A model generated the notes under the pieces. That model did not search any database and had not been told where the DNA came from. It saw only the letters and a program-made list of their open reading frames with translations. From Aurantiochytrium sp. KH105 (Eukaryota; Sar; Bigyra; Thraustochytrida; Thraustochytriidae): a stretch of DNA of 64,000 bases. The translations under genes were made by a program, and so were the position numbers. Shown in pieces: positions 5,119 to 12,000 of this stretch (position 1 is its first letter; the number at the start of each line of letters is the position of its first letter). The stretch covers positions 62,001 through 126,000 of the forward strand of contig BGKB01000162.1 of assembly GCA_003116975.1 (NCBI GenBank), in the 5' to 3' direction.

Positions 5119-6141
5119 CCGGACAGACAGGTGGACATTGTGGTTCTCATCAGCGTTCAGGCTTTTCGCACGCAACAATTTCCCCCGCGTGCAGCCTTAT
5201 TCTGCGCCACAAACAAATGTCGCCACACCACCTGTCGTCGTCGTTCTTGTTTTCGCTGTCGTTGTCGTCGCCGTCGACATCGAAGTCATCAATATCCCAA
5301 TGAGTTTTTTTTGTTCGTGGCGGGAAAAGCGGGAACAGAGAAAAAAGAGGCATGAGGGCAGATTCTGCCAACTCGTTGTGTCGAAATCTCTGCCGTTAGG
5401 TCCGCCCCGAATTGGAGACGCGCCCAATCAACAAAGAGTCCCACGAAGTCAAGTTCCTCGGTTCCAAATAGAGAAGTTCTCATCCACGCTGTGAGGAACT
5501 TTTCTTGTCCATTTCTCTCAAGAGCCAAGTCCGCAATGAGGACCAACTCTCTGTGTTGAGTGCGATCTCACACGCACGGAGCTCGGAGTGCTATAGCCCA
5601 AACTGAAAAAATGTCAAGTCACCAATCACGACAAGGCGGATGCGCCAGACATGCAAGCATTCCTTTCAAGTTACAGTTAAACGTCAATCTAACAATTCTC
5701 TTCTTTCTAAAAAAAAGAAGAATTTTTACCCTTGTCCCGGCTGTGGCTCGTACTGTGTTCATTTCGCAGGCGATCAGATCCGCAAAGTCGTCGTCAACTG
5801 CAATGACAATGCCGCTCATCAGCTGCTCGATGTCCATCTCTTTCTCTAATTGGCTAGGTCTATCTATCTATCTATCCCCATGGTCGATGCTCGTGCCAGC
5901 GCGGCGAGGATTGCTCCCATCTTCATGCCCATATCCCCGTGGCCCTCCGCCCATGAACGCTCTGCAGTCGAGCACAAATCTTGCAGAATGACGCTTTTCG
6001 GCGTTCTTCTTGCAACGCCGGCAGCGCAGGCCACCTCCCTCATCGTTGGAATAAAGTTAATAATTACGACCGGCGACCTGACCCGCCGCTGCCGGCACGG
6101 GCATACCCCTCGCCCTCACCCCGGGCTTGCGTTCCCCCTGC
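5119..6141. other. Intergenic region, no gene seen
   Basis: This is the downstream region of the polyQ gene and upstream region of the kinase gene. It is less GC-rich up to about 6050 and contains a short CTAT repeat near 5858-5877. No frame has recognisable protein features. Confidence 0.6.
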
Positions 6142-8037
6142 ATGCAGACGAGATGCGTGCTCTGCTCGCGACCTCGTCCGTCGCGCGTTCGCGCCCCGGG
6201 TCGCTGGCCCCAAAGTGCCAAACTCCCTCCCGCACGCCGTCATCATCTCATCTGCATCCGCCGCCGCCGCCACCGCCGCCGCTTTTCGCAGGCCCGCGCG
6301 TCCGGCCCTCCCTCCCTCCTCGCCCGGGCCTGCGTTCCCCGCGCNCCCGCCGCCATCGCGCGCGAGCGCCCGACGCTGACCGAACTCGCCAAGCACCGCA
6401 CGGACAAGGAGATGCGCAAGAGGTACGAGCTCAAACAGGTCCTGGGCGAAGGCACCTTTGCCGTCGTTCGCCTCGGCGTCGACAAGATCACGAGGGACCG
6501 CGTCGCCATCAAAGAGATCTGCAAAGAGGCCAGCGAGATCGAGGCGCTCGAGAACGAGGTCACCATCATGCGCAACACCGGCAAGCACGATAACATCGTC
6601 TCGCTTCGCGACGTCTTCGATAGCAAGGACACTCTCTTTCTCATCATGGATCTTGCCGAAGGCGGTGAGCTCTTTGATCGCATCATCGAGCGCGGTGAAC
6701 TCTCCGAGCAAGCTGCAGCCAGCATGTTCCTCAGCGCCGTCGAGGGTGTGGCCCATCTGCACAAATTGAACATTGCCCACTTGGACATAAAGCCCGAGAA
6801 CTTGCTGCTCACCAGCAAGAACGAGGACGCAGGCATCAAAATCGCGGACTTTGGACTCGCCATCGATATGACCGGCGTCGAGGACCACGATGCCCGCAAG
6901 AGCGAGGTGCTCTGCGCTTGCGCCGACGAAGACACCGCGCAAGGCATCACCGAATGCGTGGGCACTCCGGCGTACTGGGCCCCAGAAATGGTCAAGAACG
7001 AGCCTTTTGACGAGAAGGTCGACATTTGGGCGCTCGGCTGCGTTTTGTACATTATGCTCTGCGGCGCACATCCGTTCGACCCCACGGGCGACGCTACGGA
7101 GGCCCAAATTCTCGCGCAGGTGGCCAAGGGCGACTACGACAAGTCGAACCAGGCCTACCACGAAATCTCGCGCAATGCCAAGGATCTTATCCGCCACATG
7201 CTCGACCCGAATCCCAGCACGCGGTACAACACCGACCAGCTCTTGAATCACCCGTGGCTGCGCGAGTCCGGCAAACAGAGCTCTAAACCGTTATCCAAGG
7301 ACCACATTACCAAGCTGCGCGGCTTCCGCATTATCCGTCTCCTGCGCCAGGGCATGGAGCATCTTGTGGGTAGTGCTGCCAGCGATCTCTTTAGCTCTTT
7401 TGACAACGATGGAGACGGCTACCTTTCGCGGAGCGAGCTCAAGCGCGCTCTTCAGGTCATTGGCATCAAGCTCAGCCGCCGCGAGGTCGACGCCATGCTG
7501 CGCATGCTTGACAAGGACAATGACGGCAAGATCTCCCGCGAGGAATTCGAAATCGTCTTGCGCGCGCCGGCGGGCAGCCCCTACAGTTCTGTGCGTCAAA
7601 GCACGAGTTTGGAAGACATTAGTTTCCTCTTTAATGTCTTTGACCGCGACGGCGACGGCTACATTCAAGAGGAGGACTTCCAGCATGTTCTCAGTCTCTT
7701 GGGTGCTACGATTTCTGCTTCGGGACTTTACAATGAGATGGCGCAGATTGACACCGACAAGGACGGCCGCGTGGATCTTACCGAGTTTGTCACGTACTGG
7801 CGTCTCATGGAGCGCGAGCGAATGCGGCGTGGTTACGACAGCGTCTCTGCGCTGCACGTGAATCAGCGGCGCACAACGCTTCGCAAGTTACCCGTATCGC
7901 CTGCATCGGAGCGTCCCGAGGACGATGAGGGCGGCCAATCCTCTTCATCGCGCAATCCTGCCAACGCTGACGGCGGAGAAGAAGAAGATGATGATGATGA
8001 TGACGATGTCCAGGTCGCGGCGCAGGCAGCATCCTGA
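6142..8037 (+). CDS. EF-hand protein kinase, CDPK-like, with a non-RD catalytic loop
   Basis: A Ser/Thr kinase domain is followed by an autoinhibitory-junction-like segment and four EF-hands. Counting from the Met at 6412, the glycine loop GEGTFAVV and VAIK are at the start, the catalytic loop is HLDIKPENL (His at 123), DFG is at 146 and APE at 190. Leu replaces the Arg of HRD, as in MLCK/DAPK-type kinases, so it is a non-RD enzyme. The activation segment is long (about 47 residues) and holds the cluster CAC. EF-hand loops start near residues 331, 367, 411 and 447, each with Asp-rich calcium ligands. A Ser/Asp/Glu-rich tail ends the protein. The start is uncertain. The ATG at 6142 adds 90 Arg-rich residues and spans the N at 6345, but the frame already looks coding just before 6412, so either 6142 or an unseen upstream exon is needed. 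It is likely a calcium-activated kinase. Confidence 0.85.
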   Translation: MQTRCVLCSRPRPSRVRAPGRWPQSAKLPPARRHHLICIRRRRHRRRFSQARASGPPSLLARACVPRXPAAIARERPTLTELAKHRTDKEMRKRYELKQVLGEGTFAVVRLGVDKITRDRVAIKEICKEASEIEALENEVTIMRNTGKHDNIVSLRDVFDSKDTLFLIMDLAEGGELFDRIIERGELSEQAAASMFLSAVEGVAHLHKLNIAHLDIKPENLLLTSKNEDAGIKIADFGLAIDMTGVEDHDARKSEVLCACADEDTAQGITECVGTPAYWAPEMVKNEPFDEKVDIWALGCVLYIMLCGAHPFDPTGDATEAQILAQVAKGDYDKSNQAYHEISRNAKDLIRHMLDPNPSTRYNTDQLLNHPWLRESGKQSSKPLSKDHITKLRGFRIIRLLRQGMEHLVGSAASDLFSSFDNDGDGYLSRSELKRALQVIGIKLSRREVDAMLRMLDKDNDGKISREEFEIVLRAPAGSPYSSVRQSTSLEDISFLFNVFDRDGDGYIQEEDFQHVLSLLGATISASGLYNEMAQIDTDKDGRVDLTEFVTYWRLMERERMRRGYDSVSALHVNQRRTTLRKLPVSPASERPEDDEGGQSSSSRNPANADGGEEEDDDDDDDVQVAAQAAS

Positions 8038-8322: not shown

Positions 8323-10002
8323 TCAGCATACCATCAGCTTGTCGGCAAAGGTAGTCATTGCAATGCTCATCGCCTGTACCATTGTGAGCGGCGACTTGAA
8401 ATCAAGACTAAAACGGTGTTTGGAGACCTTGCCGAAAAGCATGAGCCATTCGCCGACATTTTCGTCGCGACTCTCTTGGATCTTGAAATTCTTCTTGCTG
8501 GCCATCTTGACGCGACCACCGAAGTCCATCGTCCATGAATTTGCGCTCTCTCTCCAAATAGGTTTGCGCGTACGGAGACACATGACGCCTTGCATTTGAT
8601 TGTCTTCAAAGCGGGAAACTAGGCCTGGGCCCGGCGGCAAGGCCTGGCGCAAATCAGGTGCTAAAACCGTCATTGCATTTGGAATGCGACCCATAACATT
8701 CTGATCGTACAGCACGGCGCCATGCTCACCTTGCACAAGCTCCGGGAAAGCTCGCGCAGCCGGAGCATCCGGCGAGAGCCCGTGATCGTACATGATAAAG
8801 GTGGTTCCCACAAAGTTGCACTCAATGTGACCCAGAAAATCCAAACTTTCACGTGTAAAACTTGATGGATACCCGCTTGCAAAAAGGAACTCGCTGGATC
8901 CAATTATGTGACATGCGGCCATGAGCACCTCATCCGAGTCTTCACTCCGCAAGACAAAGTGCGTCTCGTCTTCATTCGCGCCCATACCACGTCGACGCTC
9001 AACGAAGCAGCGATACTCCCCCTCGGCGCCCACACCTACGCGTCGCAAGGCAGCATCGACAGGCAGACATGATCCTGGCATGAAGAACGCTCGCTTGTGA
9101 GCAAGATCATCCTTGAGCACATCGTAAAATTGCGCCGCAGGCAATCTTTGCCCTTGACAACAAATATAGTTTCCGTCGTAGCTGACGTGAAGCCCCGCTT
9201 TCGAACCATCCTCGTTCTCTTCGCGAGCCTGGAGTTGTCCAGCATAGCACAGCCAGCGCATTAGCGCACGTTTGAATTGCTGGCGATGAAAGCGCTCGGC
9301 TGTGCGAAATACTCGTACGAAAATGGCCTCGCTCAGATTCTCGGCGAGAAAGTTTTCGGTCCGCTGCATGAGCTCTTCGTGGCCGATCATGCATGCTGCA
9401 GCGTGGACTTGCAGACAATTGTGAAAGCCCAATGGGACATTCTGCGCGCAATGCTCGATTGGACTCGCGACGCAGCAAAAGGCTTGCCAGAATGCGTCCA
9501 GCATGCGGATGCTGGGAAACTCGAGCACGGCGTCCCCGCCCGCGGTCCAGGCGCCGCCCTCGTTGAGCAGTCGCCGAAAGTAGTCATATTCCAGCAGTCT
9601 TTGTTTTAGGACGCGCACGCGGATCTCTTTGCGCTGTACAGCCAGCGCGACCGGTCTCGGTCGTCGTATGATCACGTCGTCCTCGTCAGCCATATGATTG
9701 TGGGTTTCGTCGTCGCTATTGCTGCGATGGCGTCCAAGCTGATCATCATCTTCATCTCTCTCATGTTGCGAGCAAATGTCCGTTTCACAGTCTTCACTCT
9801 CGAACTCGTGCGGTGGGAGCGTGAGGATGTCGAACAGACTGAGATCGAGCATCTTTTCCCGCTTTGCCTTGCGTTGGGCCAAGGTTGTCACTGTCGTCGA
9901 TCTTGGTCGTGACGAGCCTACTTCTCCTTTACCCTTTTTCAACGTGGCGCTTCTTGCCGCATTGCTGCGTAAGATGACCACTACGTGCTGATCCTCGTAC
10001 AT
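8323..10002 (-). CDS. BTB/BACK-like domain fused to a tubby domain
   Basis: The protein has 559 residues from an ATG at 10002. Residues 1-125 are charged and low-complexity. Residues about 127-225 look like a BTB/POZ fold (LLEYDYFRRLL followed by helices ending in ENFLAENL), with a BACK-like helical extension to about 255. From about 305 to the last residue is a tubby C-terminal domain: CNFVGTTFIMYDHG, LYDQNVMGRIPNAMTV, DFGGRVKMASKKNFKI and the terminal helix MVQAMSIAMTTFADKL all align with mouse tubby. The basic segment that contacts phosphoinositides in tubby appears replaced by a non-basic one. Plant tubby-like proteins carry an F-box and TULP4 a SOCS-box; a BTB here would make it a possible CUL3 adaptor (inference). 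It converges with the kinase gene, leaving 285 bp between stops. The tubby call is firm; the BTB call is moderate. Confidence 0.8.
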   Translation of the reverse strand: MYEDQHVVVILRSNAARSATLKKGKGEVGSSRPRSTTVTTLAQRKAKREKMLDLSLFDILTLPPHEFESEDCETDICSQHERDEDDDQLGRHRSNSDDETHNHMADEDDVIIRRPRPVALAVQRKEIRVRVLKQRLLEYDYFRRLLNEGGAWTAGGDAVLEFPSIRMLDAFWQAFCCVASPIEHCAQNVPLGFHNCLQVHAAACMIGHEELMQRTENFLAENLSEAIFVRVFRTAERFHRQQFKRALMRWLCYAGQLQAREENEDGSKAGLHVSYDGNYICCQGQRLPAAQFYDVLKDDLAHKRAFFMPGSCLPVDAALRRVGVGAEGEYRCFVERRRGMGANEDETHFVLRSEDSDEVLMAACHIIGSSEFLFASGYPSSFTRESLDFLGHIECNFVGTTFIMYDHGLSPDAPAARAFPELVQGEHGAVLYDQNVMGRIPNAMTVLAPDLRQALPPGPGLVSRFEDNQMQGVMCLRTRKPIWRESANSWTMDFGGRVKMASKKNFKIQESRDENVGEWLMLFGKVSKHRFSLDFKSPLTMVQAMSIAMTTFADKLMVC

Positions 10003-10898
10003 TTACGCCTCCGCGCACGGGCTCTCTACGCGCGGCAGAGCAAGCTCGCGTGCGACCCAGAGCAATGTGAAGAGAAGAGACCTGCTCGCTCGTCGCTGGT
10101 CTCCGTCGTAGCCTTGCGACTCTTGCCGAGCGCCGCGGAGGGGGAGGGGGAAATTGACGCTCCTACTTTCAGAGTGTCGCGTCGCGTCGTGGTCGACGTG
10201 GGTTGGATATCCGCGCCAGACAAGGCCTCTGCGCCCGCGAAGGGCCTTGCGCCGTGGTGCTCGCTCGCTCGCTCGCTCTTCGGACTTTGCGAACAACCCA
10301 ATTCGGGCAAGATGCTTTTTCTCGCCTGACTCCTCCCCGTGCCCCCCCTGGCCCGCGCCGGTTCCCGCTTCTACCCAGCGGTACTGCGCCCACCCGGGGG
10401 GTGCGCGGGGACTCTTCGTCTCTCGAGCGCCGCGGCGCCGAGTCCTCCGCCGGCGACCTGCGTCGCGAGCGCGAGCGAGACGAAGAAGAAGAAGCCGCGG
10501 CCGCGACCCCGCGCCGCCGCCGCCTGGCCCCGCGCGGCCCCGTGCCGGCGCCGGCGGCCCGGAGATCTCTCGGGAGGCCCGCCTCTGCGAGCTGGGAAAA
10601 GGGACCTTCTACGACGAGCCTGCTCTGCTTTGGCAGACCCCTAACGAGCTAGCTTGCGAAGAGGACCCCGACGCCGCAGGACTCACGCGCACGAGCAGCA
10701 GCGCGAGGGCGAGGGCGAGCAGGTAAGCAGCGTCGCCGCCCGCGGCGAGGGAGCTGCCGGACGAGAGGAGAGGAGAGGCGAAGAAGGGAAAGGAGACGAG
10801 ATGAGACGAGACTGGAGATGCTGACTCACATGGGGCTGATTTCACCGGGTTACGCTGACGGACAGGCACGAGCGAGCGAGCGAGGAAGGGCGAGAAAG
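10003..10898. other. Divergent intergenic region and 5' leader
   Basis: This GC-rich spacer lies between the BTB-tubby gene and the carrier gene. It includes a probable 5'-UTR intron of the carrier (10723-10865). Other open frames here have no protein-like features. Confidence 0.6.
10723..10865 (+). other. Candidate 5'-UTR intron of the carrier gene
   Basis: The donor GTAAGCAG at 10723 and the acceptor ending CTGACGGACAG at 10865 bracket 143 bp just upstream of the ATG at 10899. A CTGAC branch-like motif lies close to the acceptor. The same GTAAGC donor starts the coding intron of this gene. This is inferred from motifs only. Confidence 0.4.
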
Positions 10899-12000
10899 AT
10901 GTCGAGCGTGGTGGACGACGTCGCGAAGGAGGTCTTCACGTATGTGAACCTCGTGCACGCCATCTCCGGCATGGCTGGAGGTATGAGCGCTATTACAGTG
11001 TTCTACCCGCTTAACATTATCCGCATGAAACTGCAGATTGATGACAACCTCAAGGCCGCGGACCCGTTCACTGTCGCCAAGGTCATCGCCAAGGAGGAGG
11101 GCGTGCAGGCCCTGTACCAAGGCTGGTGGAGCTCGGTAAGCTAAAGCGGAAGCGCTGTCTCAGGCAGGCAGGCAGGCAGACAGGCGCCAGGAGACTGACG
11201 CACAGGAATCTCATGCCGACCCCTGGAAACTTGTGGTTTGCGGGCTTGGTGTGGGGTATGGCGCCTATTTTTTACGACCAACACAGGTAGTATCGCTGGG
11301 CGCGTCAAACTTTGTGTACTTTTACACGTACAATGCCTTCAAGAGCATTTACAAGAAACTCATTGCGGAGAACCCCAATGTGACGATCGACCCGATCACA
11401 AACCTGGCCATCGCTAGCTCCGCAGGCGTTATCAACGTTTTTGCAACCACCCCTCTCTGGGTGGCTGGTACGCGTCTCTCGGTACAGTCTCGCAAGAGCG
11501 AGGATGCCAACGGGCCCAAGCCGTACAATGGCGTCTTGGATTGCCTCATGCGCATCGCCTCTGAAGAGGGCATCGGCGCACTCTGGAACGGCGTTGGCCC
11601 CTCGCTCATGCTGGTGTCCAACCCAAGCATCCAGTTCAGCGTCTATGACCGACTGCGCACCATTCTCGAGAAGCGCGGCGAGCCCATTACGGCTGCGCAG
11701 TTCTTTGTCATTGGTGCAATCGCCAAGGCCGTGGCAACGGTCTTGACGTACCCGATCCAGATTGCGCAAAGCCGTCTCCGCGCAGACAGCGGCAGGAAGG
11801 ACGGCCAGCCGCGCAAGTATCTCAACACGATGGATTGTCTCGCCAAGATTGCCAAGGATAATGGCGTGGCCGGATGGTTCAAGGGCATGGAGGCCAAGCT
11901 CTGGCAGACGGTGCTCACTGCAGCCTTTCAATTTCTCACGTACGAGCAGATCCAAAAGGTCGTTTTCAAGGCGTTCAGAATTGACGCCGAGGGGCACTAG
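10899..12000 (+). CDS. PMP34: Peroxisomal adenine-nucleotide carrier, PMP34/SLC25A17-like (2 exons)
   Basis: The gene has two coding exons, 10899-11135 and 11287-12000, giving 316 residues of mitochondrial-carrier type. The splice restores the alignment to PMP34 exactly: WWSSVVSLGASNFVYFY matches the SNFVYFYT signature of that family. The three repeat signatures are PLNIIRMK, PLWVAGTR and PIQIAQSR. The second and third are the unusual forms seen in PMP34, and the first has Asn where carriers normally have Asp or Glu. PMP34-type carriers exchange ATP, ADP, AMP and CoA-type nucleotides across the peroxisomal membrane, supporting fatty-acid activation and beta-oxidation. A second, non-coding intron probably lies in the leader. 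The assignment to the PMP34 clade is strong; substrate preference cannot be read from the sequence. Confidence 0.85.
11136..11286 (+). other. Spliceosomal intron in the carrier gene
   Basis: This 151-bp GT-AG intron begins GTAAGCTA and ends CAACACAG, in phase 0. It contains CAGG repeats. Reading through it gives a stop codon, while removing it gives a seamless family alignment. Confidence 0.85.

Follow-up and report, generated by a model that had tools for sequence, protein, structure and literature searches.

In a 64,000-nucleotide stretch of the genome of the thraustochytrid Aurantiochytrium sp. KH105 (assembly GCA_003116975.1, contig BGKB01000162.1, positions 62,001 to 126,000; hereafter the window), the ORF list contains an intronless open reading frame (ORF) of 559 amino acids at 8323..10002 on the minus strand. 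This is a real gene, and we read its product as a two-module tubby protein in which a tubby domain devoid of its lipid pocket would be combined with a diverged BTB/3-box-like module, acting as a dimeric scaffold or receptor. We put the probability of this reading at about 0.55; the alternatives weighed below overlap with it, so that their odds and this one do not add up to 1.

A second copy of the gene, 98% identical, lies on contig C57, and nucleotide changes between the two copies were counted as synonymous or nonsynonymous over five regions, whose borders were scripted ahead of the counting, both protein sequences having already been printed by then. The tubby region (residues 327-559) showed 15 synonymous and no nonsynonymous changes and residues 110-223 showed 7 and 0, and the corresponding counts were 3 and 8 in the acidic N-terminal region (residues 1-109; 9676..10002, minus strand), which is thus of low constraint, 0 and 3 for residues 224-262, and 3 and 1 for residues 263-326. 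From these counts, protein-level constraint is clear in two parts, the tubby domain and residues 110-223. Two copies are typical for the genes looked at in this assembly of 76 Mb in 367 contigs; the C57 copy has a longer open frame, the codon preceding its ATG being GAA and not TAA.

The C-terminal module is a tubby domain (residues 328-552; 8347..9021, minus strand), matched by PF01167 with an expectation value (E) of 1.2e-40 and 140.3 bits, against a curated cut-off of 27, over profile positions 9-254 of 256. The match thus exceeds the cut-off and runs through the terminal helix, which places the protein in the tubby family. Among sequences of solved structures, the top matches for this part were tubby, TULP1 and TULP3 chains, with TULP1 aligning to residues 330-556 (E 2.9e-26). 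The first-pass annotation, made from the letters alone, had described the domain as clear and complete to the terminal helix and its phosphoinositide-contacting basic patch as lost, and both statements hold. We take the contacts with phosphatidylinositol 4,5-bisphosphate (PI(4,5)P2) to be N310, K330, R332 and R363, in mouse numbering. When the protein was aligned with tubby, TULP1 and 14 paralogues from the same genome, their places were taken by E or F (the paralogue alignment and the TULP1 match differ here), H, E and Q, so that none of the four residues by which a PI(4,5)P2-binding tubby domain would be recognised is kept; H392-I393-E394 (8821..8829, minus strand) aligns with mouse K330-L331-R332. 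The second basic site, 301-305 (RKRKK), reads A-C-H-I-I in the paralogue alignment, and its lysines and arginines are all gone both there and in the TULP1 match. The available text of PMC10445746 confirms K330, R332 and the second site for mouse tubby and, as far as it extends, does not mention N310 or R363; it reports that R332H strongly reduced PI(4,5)P2-dependent clustering and that K330A/R332A almost abolished it. Loss of the basic patch is common among the tubby genes here and not special to the window protein: among the 15 aligned genes only L012 keeps all four contacts (N, K, R, R), and besides it only L025 carries lysine at both 330 and 332. The paralogues are a divergent group, and gaps occur in several of them: L024 in every one of the four contact columns, L019 at 310, and L011, L013, L016 and L021 at 363.

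Residues 116-223 (9334..9657, minus strand) are, with moderate confidence and judging from sequence comparison, a putative and highly diverged BTB domain. Against a profile of 13 BTB domains from the same genome, hhalign gave a score of 35.4 and a probability of 72; the best of 250 decoy segments, drawn randomly where 409 ORFs had passed the eligibility filter, scored 16.9 and the best of 250 shuffles 22.8. Smaller profiles of five, six and seven domains gave 23.3, 32.2 and 28.9, none reached by any of 150 shuffles, and a profile expanded with SPOP, KEAP1 and ZBTB7A segments gave 34.3 with the BTB domains of GGPW type kept and 24.65 without them, with none of 200 decoys and none of 150 shuffles as high as either score. 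The 13-domain hidden Markov model (HMM) scored the segment at 12.4 bits, exceeded by none of 2000 shuffles, and when it was run against 906 ORFs, a set enriched for BTB loci, both gene copies came first behind 20 BTB ORFs, if only narrowly (8.2 and 8.0 bits versus 6.2 for the next ORF). When the segment was compared pairwise with 15 BTB domains, among which two were near-copies or overlapping pieces, the two highest z-scores went to those of L056, a BTB-ankyrin-FYVE protein (z 8.3), and L048, a BTB-Kelch protein (z 6.1), with 0 of 300 shuffles as high in either case, and the L048 alignment spans both BTB and 3-box. The top five phmmer matches among the 906 ORFs, after the protein's own two copies, were likewise BTB ORFs; they represent three genes, since L043 and L048 denote one locus and L044 is its second copy; by BLAST, L056 and L048 headed the list after the own copies with E values of only 0.48 and 0.79. 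Among solved-structure sequences, phmmer placed KBTBD2 first for residues 106-258, in the expected register (E 1.4), followed by an unrelated dehydrogenase (E 1.8).

Several results weigh against a BTB domain at this place. Neither PF00651 (BTB) nor BACK was listed by Pfam for the protein at E up to 10, in a search whose filters remove most matches above E about 0.1. The seven-domain HMM gave only 6.5 bits, exceeded by 5 of 2000 shuffles, with the hairpin in another register, and the register also differed in two of the three smaller hhalign alignments, those of five and seven domains. Without the two GGPW-type domains the score of the expanded profile covers 24 columns, and its margin over the best decoy (21.1) and the best shuffle (21.3) is narrow, so that much of the profile signal depends on these two domains. 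For nine of the 15 BTB domains the pairwise z-score was under 1, and the AH[RK] and YT[GD] signatures, which are hallmarks of BTB domains and appear in other rows of the hhalign alignment, are absent from the module. A genome-wide search with the module, run to E 10, returned its two copies and nothing else, although a more diverged copy could escape such a search. Finally, no BTB domain was among the 50 entries listed for each of two predicted structures in the VIA structure comparison, and the best BTB among the 50 Foldseek rows listed for the second had an E value of 2.2.

These structures are single-sequence AlphaFold models of the module with confidence scores (predicted local distance difference test, pLDDT) of 45.3 and 46.6. 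In both, the order of elements is strand-strand-helix-strand-helices, as in a BTB domain followed by a 3-box. Two helices stand at the place of the 3-box, the first hairpin of BACK (residues 224-252; 9247..9333, minus strand), and align in register with L048; the segment shows no sign of constraint between the copies. The upstream part had been called BTB/BACK-like, with a prediction over residues 120-260 proposed as the check. What stands of this is a constrained extra module with weak but above-chance similarity to BTB domains and a fitting order of elements in models of low confidence; what does not is a Pfam match to either family, a significant structural match, or a full BACK domain, of which at most the 3-box hairpin could be present.

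One alternative is that the module is some other domain of alpha/beta plus helical type, either restricted to this lineage or too remote for the searches to identify, whose likeness to BTB stems from convergent helix patterns. The negative results above leave this a real if minority chance, and it is countered by the fact that BTB proteins rank first, above decoys or shuffles, in the profile, pairwise and phmmer comparisons, and by the order of elements in the models. It could also be that a BTB-like module serves only dimerisation or membrane traffic, and that the protein has a role in endosomal traffic and not in degradation. The match to L056 would fit, since that protein carries a FYVE domain, and GG[PA]W is common to L056 and the window protein, both of which lack the phi-x-E motif of BTB domains that bind CUL3. 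However, the likeness of two BTB domains says little on pathway, and the tubby lipid pocket, a likely membrane tether, has been lost, so that we consider such a role improbable.

The first-pass annotation had proposed a different role, that of a possible CUL3 counterpart of F-box- and SOCS-box-tubby proteins. In a substrate receptor of this kind BTB and 3-box would bind CUL3, the tubby barrel would bind the substrate, and the complex would ubiquitinate it. On one side, a potential partner is encoded in the genome, which has about five cullin-like genes in two copies each (12 matches). The N-terminal parts of four were fetched, and two, L059 and L060, were compared with solved structures, L061 and L062 being left out; L060 is CUL4-like, and L059 is a CUL3 orthologue (Cullin-3 at E 2e-91 and 310 bits versus 192 for CUL4B, from query residue 5) in which the helix that recognises BTB domains has the CUL3 spacing F-x3-Y-x3-Y-x3-L, the residues being F54, Y58, Y62 and L66 according to PMC3616122. 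On the other side, the phi-x-E (or phi-x-D) of the alpha3-beta4 loop, given as M83-S84-E85 in KLHL3 and L115-R116-E117 in KEAP1 (PMC3616122, PMC10564622), is not kept. In the hhalign alignment the window protein has W152-T153-A154 there (9541..9549, minus strand), with a bulky Trp at the phi position, a point in favour of CUL3 binding, but with the glutamate replaced by Ala154. The equivalent disease change in KLHL3, E85A, severely disrupted CUL3 binding by isothermal titration calorimetry (PMC3616122). Nine of the 13 own-genome BTB domains, scored by eye in the same alignment, keep phi-x-E or phi-x-D; those of L051, L054b and the GGPW relatives L056 and L057 have lost it. The loss is not decisive, because a change at the phi position in vaccinia A55 lowered CUL3 affinity only moderately (PMC6484134); the case for CUL3 binding by the window protein is thus weakened, though such binding may still occur. 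The 3-box-like hairpin may be present, but it is without constraint between the copies, and the BTB identity of the module is itself only putative. All in all, we think a CUL3 receptor of the kind first proposed unlikely, and we are as doubtful of a BTB-tubby receptor with a non-canonical interface, with Trp in the phi pocket and no glutamate, that would have joined tubby to a third class of cullin in a genome where four other genes also seem to link tubby to RING fingers.

The two-module scaffold or receptor would then be pictured as follows. A constrained C-terminal tubby domain, with the canonical PI(4,5)P2 pocket residues replaced, is preceded by a second constrained module, which is fairly likely a strongly diverged BTB domain followed by a 3-box-like helical hairpin, the nearest sequence relative of this module appearing to be the BTB of the genome's own BTB-ankyrin-FYVE protein. 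Less surely, the BTB-like part may form a homodimer and the tubby barrel, its lipid sensing gone, may bind a protein partner, so that the protein would serve in dimeric form as scaffold or receptor. It might also recruit CUL3, but this would need to work without the phi-x-E glutamate.

Other domain combinations occur among the tubby genes of this assembly, in which the 29 tubby matches, grouped in pairs on score or sequence, represent about 15 genes. A RING finger precedes tubby in L015, L016, L017 and L021 (contigs C62, C113, C115 and C52; Pfam zf-RING_2, E 3e-6 to 6e-4), although only L017 is above the curated Pfam cut-off. The spacing of these fingers, PC-x3-C-x5-H-x2-C...CPLC, is one that we take to resemble RING-CH. 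These four paralogues might act directly as ubiquitin ligases that carry a tubby barrel, and would be a plainer link to ubiquitin than the window protein. SH3 and GYF domains stand ahead of tubby in L011 (2057-4306, plus strand) and L013 (2546-5164, minus strand). In L014 (2557-5403, minus strand) there are weak, below-cut-off matches to a zinc ribbon (E 0.044) and a PDZ domain (E 0.15); this paralogue also lacks the lipid-contact residues and has in common with the window protein the stretch NV[LM]GR[VI]PN. Among the BTB relatives, L056 (2-3310, minus strand) has an architecture like that of Rabankyrin-5/ANKFY1, and where its BTB should show the phi-x-E motif it reads GGPWYG, and L057 (1048-2595, plus strand), an ankyrin protein with two BTB domains, has GGPWAG. 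A distant cullin-like match lies about 23 kb away on the same contig, outside the window (G000:C162:46573-47157; profile 396-586, E 1e-17), and our guess is that it is perhaps APC2-like. By eye, the convergent neighbour of the tubby gene (6127-8037, plus strand) resembles a calcium-dependent protein kinase, with a kinase part ahead of EF hands, and the divergent neighbour (10818-12000, plus strand) resembles a mitochondrial-type carrier protein.

Tubby proteins linked to cullins are known from other lineages. The plant F-box tubby-like proteins, which are linked to CUL1, resemble the window protein in having a C-terminal tubby domain, a separate N-terminal module and a possible cullin link, but here that module is at best BTB-like and the lipid-contact residues are replaced. 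TULP4, an animal WD40/SOCS tubby protein, and others of its type also join a tubby barrel to a possibly cullin-linked module; in contrast, neither WD40, SOCS box nor F-box was found in the window protein, for which Pfam at E up to 10 returned Tub only. With the BTB-BACK/3-box adaptors of CUL3 (KLHL3, KEAP1, SPOP, KBTBD2) the module has weak sequence similarity and the order of elements in common, but it lacks a full BACK, the phi-x-E glutamate, AH[RK] and YT[GD], and tubby stands where these adaptors have Kelch or MATH. L056, the closest BTB in the pairwise test, differs in that its remaining domains are ankyrin repeats and FYVE. A 2020 paper recognises three classes of tubby N-termini, those with WD40/SOCS, those with F-box and those without a domain; according to the same paper, CUL3 and its BTB adaptors KBTB6/KBTB7 are interaction partners of TULP3, whose level rises upon CUL3 knockdown (PMC7948452). 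No BTB-tubby protein was found in our literature searches, and the window protein, seen in one genome only, would be new within the tubby family, with a BTB identity that is putative. If that identity is true, the BTB-like tubby would join the RING-tubby and SH3-GYF-tubby paralogues, and perhaps a PDZ-tubby one, as a sign that this lineage employed tubby as a barrel for binding proteins in general, in many cases no longer tied to lipid binding and linked more than once to ubiquitin parts.
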